This document shows, one piece after another, positions 16,232 to 23,144 of a stretch of DNA of 64,000 nucleotides (positions are counted from its first letter, which is position 1; each line of letters starts with the position of its first letter). A program made the position numbers and the translations under genes. Origin of the DNA: Candidatus Eiseniibacteriota bacterium (GTDB taxonomy: Bacteria > Orphanbacterota > Orphanbacteria > Orphanbacterales > Orphanbacteraceae); the NCBI GenBank assembly GCA_024276995.1, contig JAJRWB010000031.1, forward strand, positions 1 through 64,000, given 5' to 3'. Below the pieces are notes generated by a model that worked only from the letters and a program-made list of their open reading frames with translations, ran no database searches and was not told the DNA's origin.

Positions 16232-19200
16232 TCATTCTAGCCGCTCCCACCCGGCGAAGGAAGACGGAAAAAGGGGATCGCCGGATTGCTCCGCGAGAAG
16301 CGGCTCCTCCCCGCCGAGATCGTCGATCGTTTCGACGTTCAGCGTTCGCGCACCGTAGTGTTCCTCGATCCGCCCCGAAACCCGGAAAGGTCCCCCGCCA
16401 CGCACCGATTCGGCGAAGCGCCGGTAGACCGGCGGGAAAAGAGTGCATTCGAAAAGACCGTACTCATCCTCCAGGGTAAGGAAGAGCATCGTCTCCCCCC
16501 GCTTCGTCCTCACCCTCCTGGCGGCATCGCGCACGCCGACCAGTTCGATCGGCGCCCCCGGCTCCAGATCGTTCTCGAAGAGCCGCGAGTCGGCGGCGCC
16601 GGCGCACGCTCCGCCGTGGCGGAGGAGGGTGATCGGATGGGCCGAGACGGCGAGATGAAGGATCTCCATTTCATAGCGGAGCCGCTCGCTGAGACCGATC
16701 TCCCCGAGGGAAGGAGCCGCGCCCGCCACCGCGCCGGCGATCGGGGGCGCCTCTTCGGGAAACATATTCTCTTCGCTCCGCCACGGCGCTCGCCGCGTCC
16801 CCCGTCCGGCCGCGCACGAGGCGTACAGCTCCCAGAGCAGTTCCGTCCGCTTCACGCCGGTCCAGTCACCCCCCCCCCACCAGGACGAGCCGCTCGGCGT
16901 CACGCCTCGGCGGGCGGACACGACGAAGAAAGTGGGCGAACGAACGAAACGGCCTTCCTTCGTAGATGCGCCGGCGCACCGGCACGGAGAGATCGCGCAC
17001 CTGCGCCAGGCCGGTGCGAATCGCGCCCGTCGGGCGGCCCGGACCGGACCGACCGATCGCGGAGGCCGGGGCATCGTCGAATTCCAGCGTGAATCGATCG
17101 GCGCTTCGCTGCACGCACGGCGGACGGATCTCGATCCCCCGCCGGCGCGCCTCCTCGAGATGTACCCGCGTGGCGTACATCCCCTGGTGATTGTTGAGAA
17201 GCGCCACGGCGTGTTCCGCCGGGTAGTTCGCTTTGAGGTACGCCGTCCGGTAGGCGAGCACGCCGTACCCCGCGGCGTGGGCCTTGCAGAACGCGTAGTT
17301 CGCGAAGCGGGCGATCATGCGCCACACCTCCTTCGCGAGGGGAAGCTCGACGCCCCTTTGCACGGCAAGGGCGAGAAACGTGTTCGTCAGCGCCCGCATC
17401 GATCGGTCGTCGCCCGCCTCGGCGATTCGCCGCCGGAGGAGATCGCTCTCCTCGAGGGAAAGCCCGGTGATCCGGCTCGCCACCGCCATCACATCCTCCT
17501 GGTAGAGCGGTACGCCAAGTGTCTCGGCGAGAAGATCCTCGAGGTCGGGGTGGGGATAGCTGACCGGCTCGAGACCGCGGATCCGCCGCACGAAACGCTC
17601 CTTCATGCCCGACGACGCCGGCCCGGGCCGGATGAGGGAGTGCGCCGCGATAGTGCCTTCCATGTCGGACGTACCGATCATGCGGAGGAGGGTTCTCATG
17701 CCGGGCGACTCGATCTGGAAACAGCCGAGGGTACGCCCCTCCCGCAGGAGCCGCGCGGTCGGCCCGTCGTCGTCCGGAATCGTTTCCATATCGATCTCCT
17801 CCCCCCTCGCCTTCCGGATGAGGGAGGTCGTTTCACGGATCGTCGAAATCGCCCGGTTCCCGAGAAGGTCGATCTTGATCAGGCCGATCCGCTCGATCGA
17901 TTCCATCTCGTACTGGGTGATCACGATCCCCTTCGCCGCCCGTTCGAGACCGGTCAGCCGGTCGAGGGGACGGTCGCCGATCACGATGCCTCCGCAATGG
18001 ATCCCGAGGTGGCGCGGCGCGCCGCGGAGACGCTCGGCGAGGCGAAGCACGGCGGTGTACGCTTTCCGGTCGCGCGGGTATTCGCGCAACGCCCTCGAGC
18101 GGGCGAAGTACTCGTCCAGCGTCCCGTCGATCTCCCGGGGGATTCTCCGGCTCACCCGATCGACCACGCCGGCGGGTAGGCCGAAGGCGCGGGCGGTGTC
18201 GCGAAACGCCGAGCGGCAATGATAGTGGTTGTGCGTCGAGATCATTGCCACGCGATCGCGGCCGTAGCGCTCATACGCGTAGTCGATCACCTCGTCCCTT
18301 CCACGCCAGCACAGATCGACGTCGAGATCGGGCCGGTCGTCGCGCAGTGAATTGAGAAACCGTTCGAAGTAGAGCCGGTGAGCGATCGGGTCGACACTCG
18401 TGATGCCGAGAAGATACGCGAGGAGCGAACCGGCGCCCGATCCGCGGCCCACCACCGGGATCCCCCGGGAACGGGCGAAGCGGACGAGGTCCCCCACGAC
18501 GACGAAGTACTCCGAAAAGCCGCTCCCGTGAACCGTCTCCAGCTCCCGCTGCAGCCGCGCGGTGATCTCGGGGGTGATCCCCTTCCCGTACCGGCGACGA
18601 AGTCCCTCTTGGGCGAGGCGGTGCAGGTATGAGTACGCCGTCTCCCCCGGGGGCAGAGGGCACTTCGGAAAGATCGGCTCCGTGCGGACGGGATCGAAGT
18701 CGCACGCCTCGGCGATCGCCCGACCGTCGGCGATCAATTCGGGCGATCCCCGGAGGAGACGCGCTACCTCGCCGGGGGAACGGAGGCGGTCCCCGAACGC
18801 CTCCCCCTTCGCCCGGACCTCGCGACCGACAAGCGTGTTCGTACGGATCGCCGCCAGGAGCGCCTCGAACGACCGCTCCTCCGGCCCGGCCGTGCAGATC
18901 GCCCCTCCCACCACCATACCGATGCCGAGCCGGCGGGCCGTCTCCTTCCGATGAGCGAACGACCGCGGGCCGATCGACGGGGGAATCTCGATCCATAGAG
19001 CGCCCGGCTCGACCCCTTCGCGGAGCGCCTCGGCGAGGCGCGTCGACTCGACGAGCACGAACAACCCGCGTGCGTCGGTCCTCACGCTCCCGGCGAGATC
19101 GAACGTCGCTTCGAGGTGGCGCGCCGACACGACCCGACAGACGTTGCCGTACCCGACCGCGTCGCGGGCGAGCAGAACGGCCCGGTCGGGAGAGACGGAT

Positions 19201-19502
19201 CGTGCGGCTTCCCCACCCACCACACCACCACCGGCGATTTCCCTTCCTTCCCCGGGAAGATCGCTCACCTCGGCGCCGGTGATCGACACGATTCCCGCCG
19301 CCCGCGCCGCTTCCCGGAAGAAGATCGCCCCGTACAGGTTGTCCCGATCGACCAGCGCCGCCCGGTTGAAGCCAAGTACCCTCAGCCGCTCGACGAGCCG
19401 TTCGATCGAAGCCGTCCCGCGAAGGAGCGAAAAGCGGCTTTGCATGTGAAGCGGGACGTACGCCCCCTCGTGCCCATTCGACGCCCCCGGTATCTCCCTC
19501 AT
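16232..19502 (-). CDS. dnaE2: error-prone DNA polymerase DnaE2, frameshifted at a G10 tract
   Basis: A C-family polymerase alpha of about 1089 aa if one base is removed. Translation from 19502 gives 878 residues and stops at 16866 just after a run of ten G (plus-strand C run 16869-16878). The remaining 210 residues, including the C-terminal OB-fold region, continue in another frame to 16232. With nine G the reading joins as V-G-G-G-D-W-T-G-V-K-R-T-E-L-L-W, normal for this family. Catalytic aspartates are in P-D-L-D-V-D-L and I-K-I-D-L-L-G. The PHP motif is altered (L-H-M-Q-S where H-x-H is usual). DnaE2 performs SOS mutagenesis and lesion bypass. A promoter with a shared operator lies upstream. 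Confidence 0.85.
16869..16878. repeat. homopolymer of ten C (G10 in dnaE2)
   Basis: An uninterrupted C10 tract on the plus strand, read as G10 inside dnaE2. It is the exact position at which the polymerase reading frame breaks. Such tracts are prone to sequencing error, replication slippage and RNA polymerase slippage. Confidence 0.95.
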
Positions 19503-19611
19503 TCACCTCCTCATCTTCGTTCCGTCGATCCTCCCGTCTTCACGTCCGCCGCTCTTCACAAGGATGCCGGCCCTCGAAACGATGCAAGGGTCGATCCGCA
19601 GTACCCCCTGG

Positions 19612-19640
19612 AATATACCCGACATATGTATAGTGGTCAA
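19612..19640 (-). promoter_or_regulatory. dnaE2 promoter with embedded operator
   Basis: On the minus strand, -35 TTGACC (19635-19640), a 17-base spacer and -10 TATATT (19612-19617). The spacer begins directly after the -35 with ACTATACATATGT (19622-19634). The same element occurs at the same place in two other promoters at 22627-22655 and 22807-22835. Transcription would start near 19605, about 100 bases before dnaE2. A repressor such as LexA would block polymerase here; that is inference. Confidence 0.75.
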
Positions 19641-19693
19641 GACAAAAAAGGAGAATAAGGAGAACGGCGGGAAGAAGAACGAGGATCGTACGG

Positions 19694-20386
19694 CTAAGCC
19701 GGGCTCCCCACGAGCTTTCCCGGGCGTTCACCGGACGATTCCGCCAGCAGCCAACCGCCCGAGTAGACCCACCGGTTGATCAGACGGGCCAGGATCGCGC
19801 CGTAAGCGACGTGTGCCACGATCACGGTGATCGGCATGGCGGGCATGTCGAGACCCAGAAAGCCGATCCCGAGTGCCTCGACGGCGGGGCTGAGGAGGAA
19901 ACCGACCCCGATCAGGAGAGCATAGAGCTGGACGGGAAGGAAAGATCGGCGGCCGAACAGCACCGTGAAGATGATGCCGAAGGCGGCGCCGTTCCAGAAG
20001 TGATACCCCCACCCGAGAATGTCCGACCACGCGGACGGGCCGAGCATGAAGCGATCGGTCAGCAGCACCCCGAGGAGTCGGGGCATGTCGCCCGGCATGC
20101 CGCCGAAATGGAAACTCACGGCGCGAACGACTTCGAGTCCCGCCGTGGCGACGAATCCGGCCCCTGCGCCGGCCACCGCCCGATTGACGAGCCTTCCGTA
20201 GCCGAGCTTCGAGGCGACGATCAGCGCCGCGCCCAGAAGCGCTATCGACGGAAGGAGAACCGCCCTGCCGAGAAGCGAGAGCTTTGCGAGCCCTGCCTGG
20301 GCGGCGGGAAACAGATTCGGAGCGAGTCCGGCCATTGCCATAATAAAGAGACTCAGAACCGCTTCGCCTTTCAATATCTGCTTCAT
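19694..20386 (-). CDS. conserved multi-pass membrane protein, unknown function
   Basis: A 230-aa integral membrane protein with about six hydrophobic segments (the clearest near residues 8-30, 40-60, 70-88, 125-145, 155-175 and 185-205). It has no recognisable catalytic motif. Conserved-looking pieces include W-S-D-I-L-G-W-G-Y-H-F-W-N-G-A-A-F-G, which suggests a defined membrane family. A GGAGG ribosome site lies five bases before the ATG. It follows the DUF302 gene by 66 bases and both sit between dinB and dnaE2, so a shared transcript is possible. I cannot assign a function. Confidence 0.75.
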   Translation of the reverse strand: MKQILKGEAVLSLFIMAMAGLAPNLFPAAQAGLAKLSLLGRAVLLPSIALLGAALIVASKLGYGRLVNRAVAGAGAGFVATAGLEVVRAVSFHFGGMPGDMPRLLGVLLTDRFMLGPSAWSDILGWGYHFWNGAAFGIIFTVLFGRRSFLPVQLYALLIGVGFLLSPAVEALGIGFLGLDMPAMPITVIVAHVAYGAILARLINRWVYSGGWLLAESSGERPGKLVGSPA

Positions 20387-20452
20387 GATGACCTCCCCGG
20401 AAATGGATGAGCGGGACGATCCGTCATCGGACCGCCCCGCCTCCTTGAGAAA

Positions 20453-20935
20453 CTACCGCGACAGCATTCCGACCATCGACGCGAGCGATTCGTCGAGCAT
20501 GCCCGCCCTCTTCGTCAATTCCGGATTCCCGAAATCCCCGAGAAGCCGCGTGGGCGGGATGTAGCTGACCACCGTGTTGCCGCCGTCGTTGCGAAACACG
20601 TTGATCCGCACCGGCACGACGAGCCCCGCGCCGAGATCGCTGCTGAACAGCTTCTTCCCCATGGCGGGGCTGCCGACGAAGATCGTCTCCGACTCGACCT
20701 TGAGGCCGGTCATTTTCAATACCTTCCCCTGGTGCAGTTCGCCCATGACCATCATTCCGTTGCCGGCCACCATCTTGCTCAGACCCTTGACGACGTCCTG
20801 CACCGATCCTTTCACCTCCGTCTGGACCACCAGCGAGTGAGACCCCGTCGCGGAGGAGATCGCCGGCGACCCGGCGACCAAGGCGACGAGAGTAAGTGCG
20901 AGCAGCGCACTACGGATACCTGTGTTCTTTTTCAT
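20453..20935 (-). CDS. secreted DUF302-domain protein
   Basis: A 160-aa protein with a signal peptide (residues 1-30, ending near S-S-A-T-G). The remaining domain fits DUF302: an N-terminal strand followed by a helix in V-Q-D-V-V-K-G-L-S-K-M-V, a central G-S-P-A-M-G-K-K-L-F segment, then V-P-V-R-I-N-V-F and a C-terminal helix. DUF302 proteins are small alpha/beta proteins of unknown biochemical role, often periplasmic. An AAAGGAA site precedes the ATG. It lies upstream of the membrane protein gene and downstream of dinB. Confidence 0.78.
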   Translation of the reverse strand: MKKNTGIRSALLALTLVALVAGSPAISSATGSHSLVVQTEVKGSVQDVVKGLSKMVAGNGMMVMGELHQGKVLKMTGLKVESETIFVGSPAMGKKLFSSDLGAGLVVPVRINVFRNDGGNTVVSYIPPTRLLGDFGNPELTKRAGMLDESLASMVGMLSR

Positions 20936-21042
20936 TCGTATGTTCCTTTCGTTCCGTTCGGAATGGATTCACCTCGTACAACCCGTTAGTGCATGAAAGG
21001 GAACATCGATTACAAGGAAGCCGAAGGATCGAACGGCGAAGC

Positions 21043-21083
21043 GGCGGATCGATCCGCCCCCGCCGTCACCAACGGGGCGGATC
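21043..21083 (-). other. overlapping alternative hairpins between dinB and the DUF302 gene
   Basis: Two mutually exclusive stems share one arm. GGCGGATC (21043-21050) is complementary to GATCCGCC (21051-21058). GATCCGCCCC (21051-21060) is also perfectly complementary to GGGGCGGATC (21074-21083) with a 13-base loop. It lies 18 bases downstream of the dinB stop and about 110 bases upstream of the DUF302 start. No U-tract follows, so an intrinsic terminator is not certain. Confidence 0.6.
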
Positions 21084-21100
21084 CACCGGCAAGGACACCT

Positions 21101-22312
21101 TCATTTCGTCAGCGACGGCGTCCTCAGCACGAAACCGTTCTCGTTCCGTTCGAGCTTCTCCACGAGGTCGAGGCTCTTCCCCACCACCACCGACGAGTAG
21201 CCGAAACGCTCGCGCACACGGTCGAGGGCGTGGGCGATCCCCTCGGCGCGGCGCGCCCCCTCCTCGTCGTACAGGTCGATCTGCCTCGCCTTCGGGAGGG
21301 CGATGCCGGTGAGCGCCACGCCGACGAGGTGGAGCGCCTCCCGTCGCGTATCGATCTCGTCGAGCGACCGGAGCGCCCTTCGAAGCACGGGCGGATGGAG
21401 ATCGGTCGGGAAGGGGAGCGACCGGCGAAGCGACTCCCCCCCACCCCCGGCGTAGCGGATTCGCACGGTGACCGTCCTCGCCTCGAGACCGAGCTTCCGC
21501 ACGGTCCACACCGCCCGTTCGCTCAGGTAGAAGAGCATCCCCTCGATCTCCCGTCGATCGGTGGTCTCCGCGTGGAAGCTCGTCTCCCGCGACACCGATC
21601 TCGGAATCTCCCGCTCCTCCACCACTACCGTGTCCTCCCCCCGGCAGCGCCGGTAGAGGATCTCGCCATGCGCGCCGAAGAGCTTCGCCAGCGCCTCCAC
21701 CGGCAGGGCGCGCAAACCGGCGATCGTCCGGATCTGGAGCCGATCGAGAAGCGTGCCGTACCGGTACCCCACACCGGGAAGATCGCGGATCGGAAGGGCG
21801 CCGATGAACGCCGCCTCCGCGCCGCGGCGTACCAGGCCGAGCCCGTTCGGCTTCGCCGATTTTCCCACCATCTTGGCGATCATCCGGCTCGCACCGATCC
21901 CCACGGTCACCGTCAGGCCGGTGGAGGCGCGTACCGCCGCGCGCAACCGCCGCCCCACCTCGACCGGCGTACCGTGCAGGCGCTCCGTCCCCGTGAGTTC
22001 GACGTACGCCTCGTCGAGAAAGGTCTCCACGTTCGGCGAGATCTCCCGGCACAGGTCGAAGATCTTCGCAGCCACCGCCCGGTAGGTCGGGTACGAACCG
22101 TCTAGGACCACCAACTCGGGGCAGATCCGCCTCGCCCGCGAAAGGGGCATCGCGTTGTGGAGTCCCCTTCGTCGCGCCTCGTAACAGCAGCTCGCGATCA
22201 CGCCGTTTCCCACCGCCACCGGCCGGTCGCGGATCGCCGGGTTCCGCGCCTTTTCCACCGATGCGAAAAACGCGTCAAAATCGACGTGCAGGATCCACCG
22301 CTCCGGTTTCAT
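21101..22312 (-). CDS. dinB: DNA polymerase IV (Y family, DinB)
   Basis: A 403-aa translesion polymerase. Catalytic carboxylates are intact: Asp11 in H-V-D-F-D-A-F-F-A-S-V-E and Asp100-Glu101 in T-F-L-D-E-A-Y-V-E. The fingers motif S-C-C-Y-E-A-R-R-R-G and the helix-hairpin-helix segment I-R-D-L-P-G-V-G are present, followed by the little-finger domain. Because the carboxylates are intact this is an active Pol IV, not a catalytically dead ImuB. It follows the 84-aa gene by six bases and is expressed with it from damage-type promoters at 22627-22655 and possibly 22807-22835. No strong ribosome site precedes its ATG, which suggests coupling. Confidence 0.92.
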   Translation of the reverse strand: MKPERWILHVDFDAFFASVEKARNPAIRDRPVAVGNGVIASCCYEARRRGLHNAMPLSRARRICPELVVLDGSYPTYRAVAAKIFDLCREISPNVETFLDEAYVELTGTERLHGTPVEVGRRLRAAVRASTGLTVTVGIGASRMIAKMVGKSAKPNGLGLVRRGAEAAFIGALPIRDLPGVGYRYGTLLDRLQIRTIAGLRALPVEALAKLFGAHGEILYRRCRGEDTVVVEEREIPRSVSRETSFHAETTDRREIEGMLFYLSERAVWTVRKLGLEARTVTVRIRYAGGGGESLRRSLPFPTDLHPPVLRRALRSLDEIDTRREALHLVGVALTGIALPKARQIDLYDEEGARRAEGIAHALDRVRERFGYSSVVVGKSLDLVEKLERNENGFVLRTPSLTK

Positions 22313-22318
22313 GAAATT

Positions 22319-22573
22319 TCAGCTCTCGAGCATGACGAAATCGAGGTGCCAGCTCAGATCGGCGCTGTCGAGATGCATCTGGTAGACATCGCCCGACTCG
22401 ACGGACACCGAGAAGTAATGCAGCTTTCTCCCCCCTTCCCGATCCTCCCAGCGGAGGTTCACCTTCTCCACCTTGTGCTTCCGGCCGTTCCTCCGGAAGA
22501 GGAGGGGGGTCACCTTCGCCCCCTCGAAATCGGCCCTCACCTTGATCCGTTCCCCGATCGATTCGACGCGCAT
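22319..22573 (-). CDS. 84-aa protein cotranscribed with dinB
   Basis: A small cytosolic protein of unknown function, six bases upstream of dinB. It is rich in beta-type residues, with two blocks: T-P-L-L-F-R-R-N-G-R-K-H-K-V-E-K-V and a C-terminal S-G-D-V-Y-Q-M-H-L-D followed by W-H-L-D-F-V. This arrangement (R-x-G-R-x-H-x-V then W, and a final strand with H/Y-F) recalls small proteins such as DUF6504 that accompany translesion polymerase genes in other phyla. I cannot prove homology. A GGGAG site lies about eight bases before the ATG. Its place as first gene of a damage-regulated unit suggests a polymerase accessory or nucleic-acid-binding role. Confidence 0.75.
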   Translation of the reverse strand: MRVESIGERIKVRADFEGAKVTPLLFRRNGRKHKVEKVNLRWEDREGGRKLHYFSVSVESGDVYQMHLDSADLSWHLDFVMLES

Positions 22574-22626
22574 GGCATACCGCTCCCGGCGGCCCGCCCC
22601 CGGGGACGCCCACTTCCAACGATCGA

Positions 22627-22655
22627 AAGATACTCTACATTTGTTTAGTAGTCAA
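22627..22655 (-). promoter_or_regulatory. dinB operon promoter with embedded operator (proximal)
   Basis: On the minus strand, -35 TTGACT (22650-22655), 17-base spacer, -10 TATCTT (22627-22632). The spacer starts with ACTAAACAAATGT (22637-22649), the same element and phase as in the dnaE2 promoter. Start point expected near 22620, about 45 bases before the 84-aa gene. Confidence 0.75.
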
Positions 22656-22806
22656 GGCGGAAAAAAGAGAGAAGACAGATATTTCCCCGCGATTGTCACA
22701 CCCGAAAACCCCTGCCGAATCCGTGCAACCAAGCACCGATCCAAGAAAAGGCGCGCCACTGGGACGCACCGGGGGCGCTCCAAAAGGAGCGGGGCCCCTC
22801 GGAACG

Positions 22807-22835
22807 ATTGTCCCTTACTATAGTTTAGTTGTCAG
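22807..22835 (-). promoter_or_regulatory. second promoter-like site with the same operator (distal)
   Basis: On the minus strand, -35 CTGACA (22830-22835), 17-base spacer and -10 GACAAT (22807-22812). The spacer begins with ACTAAACTATAGT (22817-22829). The operator aligns base for base in position with the other two sites, though the -10 is weaker. It points toward the dinB operon, so it may be a tandem promoter, or it may drive an unseen small RNA between 22660 and 22800. Confidence 0.55.
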
Positions 22836-23144
22836 ACACTCTCGGCTGTCGCTAAGGTATGATAGAAACATCATATATTTAGCCGACCCTTTTGTACGAG
22901 CCGACCAGCATTATCGCATGCGGTGTACGGACCTTTGATCCCGGAACGAAGAATCTCGAAAAGGGCCGGGGAGACTCACTATTGGACGGCGGTCGAGGCT
23001 TATTGGCTCACATATTCCGGTACTAATGAAGGATGAGACAAAGGCCCGAGAAGATCTGTTACGCTGGGGAGGGGCGCGGGTCTTCGCCGGACAGGGATGG
23101 GCGGCGAACCGTTGATCGGGGACCCGGTCTGCAAGGAGGTCGAA

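Follow-up and report, generated by a model that had tools for sequence, protein, structure and literature searches.

Genes and promoters of the mutagenesis locus

The window, by which we mean the whole 64-kb stretch of DNA that was analysed, carries on its minus strand a gene for an error-prone polymerase and a dinB operon, together with three sigma70-like promoters. The features, in which the promoters are consensus-matching calls and the promoter and operator sequences are read from the DNA, are as follows.

16866..19502, minus strand: dnaE2, error-prone C-family polymerase (Pfam, NCBIfam error-prone DNA polymerase, alignment)
19612..19640, minus strand: dnaE2 promoter, TTGACC-ACTATACATATGTCGGG-TATATT, N17 spacer
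19618-19633, minus strand: putative operator CTATACATATGTCGGG within the dnaE2 promoter
21101..22312, minus strand: dinB, Y-family polymerase IV (PF00817, IMS; PF11799, IMS_C; NCBIfam DNA polymerase IV models)
22319..22573, minus strand: DUF6504-like protein of 84 aa, first gene of the dinB operon (Pfam DUF6504, E=0.0042, a match that falls below the curated cut-off)
22627..22655, minus strand: dinB-operon promoter P1, TTGACT-ACTAAACAAATGTAGAG-TATCTT, N17 spacer
22633-22648, minus strand: putative operator CTAAACAAATGTAGAG within P1
22807..22835, minus strand: possible distal promoter P2 (tentative), CTGACA-ACTAAACTATAGTAAGG-GACAAT, N17 spacer
22813-22828, minus strand: operator-like sequence CTAAACTATAGTAAGG of P2 (tentative)

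The initial annotation had described three minus-strand promoters with 17-bp spacers and a common element, two of them standing before dnaE2 and the dinB operon; the sequence reads exactly so, and the genes were confirmed by Pfam and NCBIfam domain matches. The dnaE2 product has PHP, DNA_pol3_alpha, finger and HHH domains (PF07733, PF17657, HHH_6) and, by alignment, the catalytic motifs PDLDVD and KIDLLG. Its gene has a frameshift at ten consecutive G on the minus strand (window 16869-16878), with the C-terminal OB part lying in another frame (16232-17074), which may reflect slippage, phase variation or an assembly error; in the relatives G003, G004 and G005, dnaE2 is a single open frame. The 84-aa DUF6504-like gene is conserved as the first gene of the dinB operon in the same three relatives, and a search for a phage homologue of its product found none. 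The protein may be a stand-alone mutasome subunit of the ImuB-C type alongside dinB and dnaE2, a combination which the passages of a survey that treat it report from Actinobacteria only (PMC12926913). In the window, dinB and dnaE2 are separated by two other genes and dnaE2 carries its own site, while in G005 a single DUF6504-dinB-dnaE2 operon is headed by the site; the same gene order is reached in G003 across an 84-bp contig overlap.

A consensus scan of positions 19300-23100 returned exactly these three sigma70-like promoters, against 0.6 in shuffled sequences. The pattern ACTAWAC-N4-GT was observed three times in the 64-kb window, always at these promoters, against 0.05 expected under a first-order Markov model, an expectation that is partly circular because the pattern was derived from those three sites. 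A terminator-like hairpin lies between P2 and dinB P1 (window 22750-22770) and could end P2 transcripts.

A palindrome at the lexA operon and at damage genes of relatives

The common element, CTnnAC-AWWT-GTnnAG, is an imperfect palindrome of 16 bp that includes the 13-mer of the initial annotation. The dinB copy (CTAAAC-AAAT-GTAGAG) and the lexA-linked copy of the same genome (CTCCAC-ATTT-GTGTAG) have the framework CTnnAC-N4-GTnnAG in common, which is matched at 8/8 positions in the dinB-P1, own lexA-operon, C76 and CTTGAC-type sites and at 6-7 of the eight in the remaining sites. Column counts over 19 sites, taken on both strands, show that A5, C6 and A7 are invariant, that position 8 is A or T, that C1 and T2 hardly vary and that position 3 is mostly A, giving an overall consensus of about CTACAC-AWWT-GTGTAG. 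Many sites combine one strong half (CTAMAC) with a weaker one, and the second half is degenerate in several. By consensus matching, the sites lie in the -35/-10 spacer or overlap the -35. Whereas window dnaE2 and dinB have the strong half near the -35, the lexA operon has it near the -10, a switch of orientation that fits a dimer able to bind either way round.

A LexA_DNA_bind search found a single lexA in the genome, which comprises 3.76 Mb in 81 contigs. The encoded protein is canonical (TIGR00498, 215 bits; LexA_DNA_bind and Peptidase_S24 domains; full-length alignment to LexA structures), its Ala-Gly cleavage site and its Ser and Lys regions align with those of solved LexA chains, as in a self-cleaving LexA, and it is apparently functional. 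Contig C3 opens with the end of a dnaE-like gene, after which lexA follows, and contig C70 breaks off inside that dnaE-like gene. The end of C70 and the start of C3 have 141 bp in common, an exact overlap such as neighbouring contigs would show, which makes the promoter, the dnaE-like gene and lexA contiguous. The promoter of this operon, TTGACA-GACTCCACATTTGTGTAG-TACTTT, carries the site, and so does the lexA-operon promoter of every genome in which the operon was found (6/6, five genera, own genome included); in the relatives, where measured, lexA begins 24-39 bp downstream of the dnaE-like gene. Hence, the occurrence before lexA that had been anticipated is seen in six genomes. A second conserved stretch (TACTTTCTGTTCAGG-like), which resembles another GTTCAG half-site, lies just downstream of the lexA-operon operator (L004:1513-1530, and the same place in L007, L008, L119, L009 and L121) and may be a further LexA contact with a different spacing.

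The comparison set comprised seven genomes of one family, whose named members appear in the databases as Candidatus Eisenbacteria OFTM309, 'Gemmatimonadetes' SS_bin_27 and bacterium LQ108M_Bin_12. Since order- and phylum-level searches return the same seven, the comparative evidence is confined to this family, in which the named relatives are MAGs, some of them fragmented. Of the six perfect CTAHACWWWWGT sites that a pattern search found in the own genome, three are those of the window promoters, one lies in the lexA-operon promoter, one belongs to a DinB_2 gene and the last is probably due to chance. Across the seven genomes, CTRNACAWWTGT gave 30 matches, against 7 for a reversed control pattern. 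Counting overlapping two-strand matches once, these are 27 distinct sites, 23 of which belong to promoters in seven gene groups that recur (lexA operon 6, dinB operon 4, separate dnaE2 2, FrsA-like 3, DinB_2 3, class II ribonucleotide reductase 4, GIY-YIG nuclease 1); the four strict matches at unrelated places are about what the reversed control predicts. Two matches were rejected as targets, one on C28 that lies inside a 5'-nucleotidase reading frame and one on C32 that sits before an unassigned ORF and is probably due to chance.

The site recurs across the relatives at orthologous damage genes, namely the dinB operon, dnaE2, nrdJ, DinB_2 and the FrsA-like genes. The dnaE2 promoter of G004 has the same layout as that of the window (TTGACT-ACTACACAAATGTGGGG-TATTCT), as does that of G002 with a weaker copy, and further weaker copies lie at orthologous places in the dinB operons of G001 and G002, at dinB2 of G003 and at nrdJ of G003 and G006. 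The DUF6504-dinB operon has the site in all six genomes with an orthologue, and in G001-G005 the operator is at the same place in the promoter, the G001 copy being weak. The class II ribonucleotide reductase gene nrdJ has the site in six of the seven genomes, the sole exception being the own nrdJ (L203), which is without the operator; at nrdJ and DinB_2, the -35 itself is a half-site, CTTGACATTTGTTTAG. A FrsA-like hydrolase gene with an operator is followed on the same strand by a second dinB, both in the own genome (L231, C76) and in G006 (L233), and this pair is likely a further SOS operon.

Enrichment before recA, which had also been expected, was not seen: upstream of recA, matrix scores were at background in the six genomes in which its start was placed, and the G005 recA locus, where the start was not placed, had no strong match. 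We therefore rejected recA as a regulon member in the genomes examined, although a box-free recA does not refute a LexA regulon.

An independent matrix, trained solely on the lexA-operon sites from six genomes, was applied to the window (128,000 positions) and gave its highest rank to dinB-P1 and the next to dnaE2, with 0.002 (symmetrised) and 0.06 such scores expected per 64 kb, respectively. With the same matrix, the third site (22807-22835) had a background score (p about 1e-3), and a matrix trained on all 17 outside sites gave it a p of about 3e-5, with 4 expected in 64 kb, so that 4-144 such scores would be expected per 64 kb over this range of p. It is also without the A...T beside the AC/GT core that is conserved in the others, and the orthologous dinB operons of G003 and G004, whose upstream regions were examined, show no counterpart of it. 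Hence, the view of the three promoters as equal members is supported for dnaE2 and dinB-P1 and not for the third, which may have arisen by chance or be a second, weak operator. We see an even chance that only dnaE2 and dinB-P1 are real operators and that 22807-22835 is a chance promoter-like sequence, which would qualify the reading of the element given below; yet its ACTAWAC-N4-GT lies less than 200 bp from P1 and in the same register behind a -35-like hexamer, an arrangement unlikely to arise by chance (0.05 per 64 kb, with the circularity noted above).

LexA as the candidate regulator

Taken together, these results suggest that the shared element is very probably the LexA (SOS) operator of a phylum-level lineage whose members are deposited as Candidatus Eisenbacteria and under other names. 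The sequence itself shows where the sites are and which genes they precede, that they are palindromic and conserved and that they lie in promoters, and from this we infer LexA as the binder, repression and induction by damage. The proposal of a lineage-specific SOS operator thus gains support from the occurrence before the lexA operon and damage genes. A LexA dimer at the site would block RNA polymerase, and DNA damage would lead to RecA-promoted self-cleavage of LexA, for which the canonical cleavage site and the Ser/Lys pair are present; this cleavage would free the dnaE-like-lexA operon itself from repression, along with dnaE2 and the DUF6504-dinB operon. Our reading gives a little-studied phylum a LexA operator and a first prediction of its SOS regulon, no paper in the literature that was searched joining Eisenbacteria with LexA, and it predicts that error-prone polymerases and class II ribonucleotide reductase, but not recA, are under SOS control.

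It is improbable that the palindrome is instead bound by another damage regulator (PafBC-like, DdrO-like or an S24/phage-type repressor) with LexA as only a target. Such a reading draws on the fact that the assignment to LexA is made from sequence, and on SOS-independent damage regulation elsewhere, as in the passages on Deinococcus in PMC8072749 and in the LexA-independent induction of M. xanthus (PMC9705874). However, the site accompanies the lexA operon in six genomes, its AC-N4-GT spacing is that of known LexA boxes, its half-site and position are common to the LexA-bound M. xanthus lexA operator, and another regulator would need to have been conserved in parallel with lexA. That there is no operator and the three sites are alike through promoter composition or local duplication we regard as hardly credible, since, although the trio was picked after the fact and its third site is at background, the same site occurs at orthologous promoters of diverged genomes, inverted in the lexA operon and over the -35 in nrdJ and DinB_2, with 30 matches against 7 for the reversed control.

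The LexA reading also draws attention to the DnaE-like genes upstream of lexA, at the following places.

L005:1-1161: DnaE-like gene, followed by lexA at L005:1162-1773
L173:2338-4020: DnaE-like gene
L007:3457-5973: DnaE-like gene
L008:3463-5976: DnaE-like gene
L009:3327-5963: DnaE-like gene

The protein is about 840-910 aa long with PHP, partial finger and HHH_6 domains, and no DNA_pol3_alpha domain was recognisable in the two members scanned. In an alignment, the PDxDxD and KxDxLG positions, with all three catalytic aspartates, are lost in 6/6 genomes, whereas real DnaE2 and DnaE1 keep them. In five genomes the gene is an open frame, with 27-28% identity between genera, which suggests its upkeep by selection; the own-genome copy has one in-frame TAA. 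An AlphaFold model was of low confidence (mean pLDDT 63, pTM 0.37), the palm region being worst. The passages found on this subject in a survey of bacterial polymerases mention inactive Y-family proteins and no inactive C-family one (PMC12926913). These features point to a pseudo-DnaE tied to lexA. We tentatively propose, with rather less than even confidence, that the operon which it forms with lexA heads the SOS regulon of the phylum, and that it would be a dedicated SOS component, a C-family counterpart of ImuB, scaffolding the mutasome or modulating LexA or RecA.

Comparison with known mutagenesis modules and LexA boxes

The locus resembles the imuA-imuB-dnaE2 cassettes and DnaE2 modules, as passages of PMC12926913 describe them, in having a LexA-type site before dnaE2 and a Y-family polymerase, and the stand-alone ImuB-C-like small protein of such modules may be present here. 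It differs in that this stretch is without imuA and imuB; a DUF6504-like gene accompanies dnaE2 and a dinB that is apparently intact, with dinB and dnaE2 in one operon in G003 and G005 and split in the window. Unlike in known dnaE2 modules, lexA here sits behind a DnaE paralogue predicted to be catalytically dead.

Among LexA boxes, of which a 2021 paper counted 17 motifs (PMC8565304), the closest is that of M. xanthus, given in passages of PMC9705874 as CTRHAMRYBYGTTCAGS (citing Campoy et al. 2003). The LexA-bound site of M. xanthus lexA, TTGACTCTACACGTCTGTTCAGG, lies directly after a TTGAC -35 (PMC9705874), and the M. xanthus lexA sequence TTGACTCTACACGTCTGTTCAG has the same left half, AC-N4-GT framework and place after the -35 as the window element, so the statement that the element is unlike the myxobacterial box does not stand. 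The two agree in the CTnnAC-N4-GTnnAG framework, into which our CTACAC/CTAAAC brings a fit to CTRHAM, and in a recA without a box, M. xanthus recA1 being reported to have none (PMC9705874). They differ in the centre (AWWT here, RYBY there), in the right half (GTGTAG or degenerate GTnnnG, against GTTCAGS) and in the regulon, predicted here to comprise dnaE2, dinB, nrdJ and DinB_2. By direct comparison, about 12/17 positions agree with the published consensus, and no site here matches it because the right half and the centre differ.

Less is shared with the Gram-positive and E. coli boxes. The box of Bacillus subtilis and Mycobacterium, GAAC-N4-GTTC (PMC3323433), is likewise a palindrome with an AC-N4-GT core at the same spacing, but our half-sites are mostly CTACAC/CTAAAC rather than GAAC and add the CT/AG ends, and by column counts AC-N4-GT alone is in common with GAAC/GTTC. 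The E. coli box, CTGT-N8-ACAG (PMC3323433), is also a 16-bp palindrome with CT...AG ends lying over the lexA and dinB promoters, whereas ours is mostly without GT/AC at positions 3-4, has an AC-AWWT-GT interior instead and does not target recA. The element is not a box common to the closest LexA proteins, since the lexA upstream regions of planctomycetes, Chloroflexi, Gemmatimonadetes and Alkalibacillus lack the motif as a rule. The sequence of the element lies between the Gram-positive and Myxococcus boxes, and it thus helps to trace how the LexA motif has changed.
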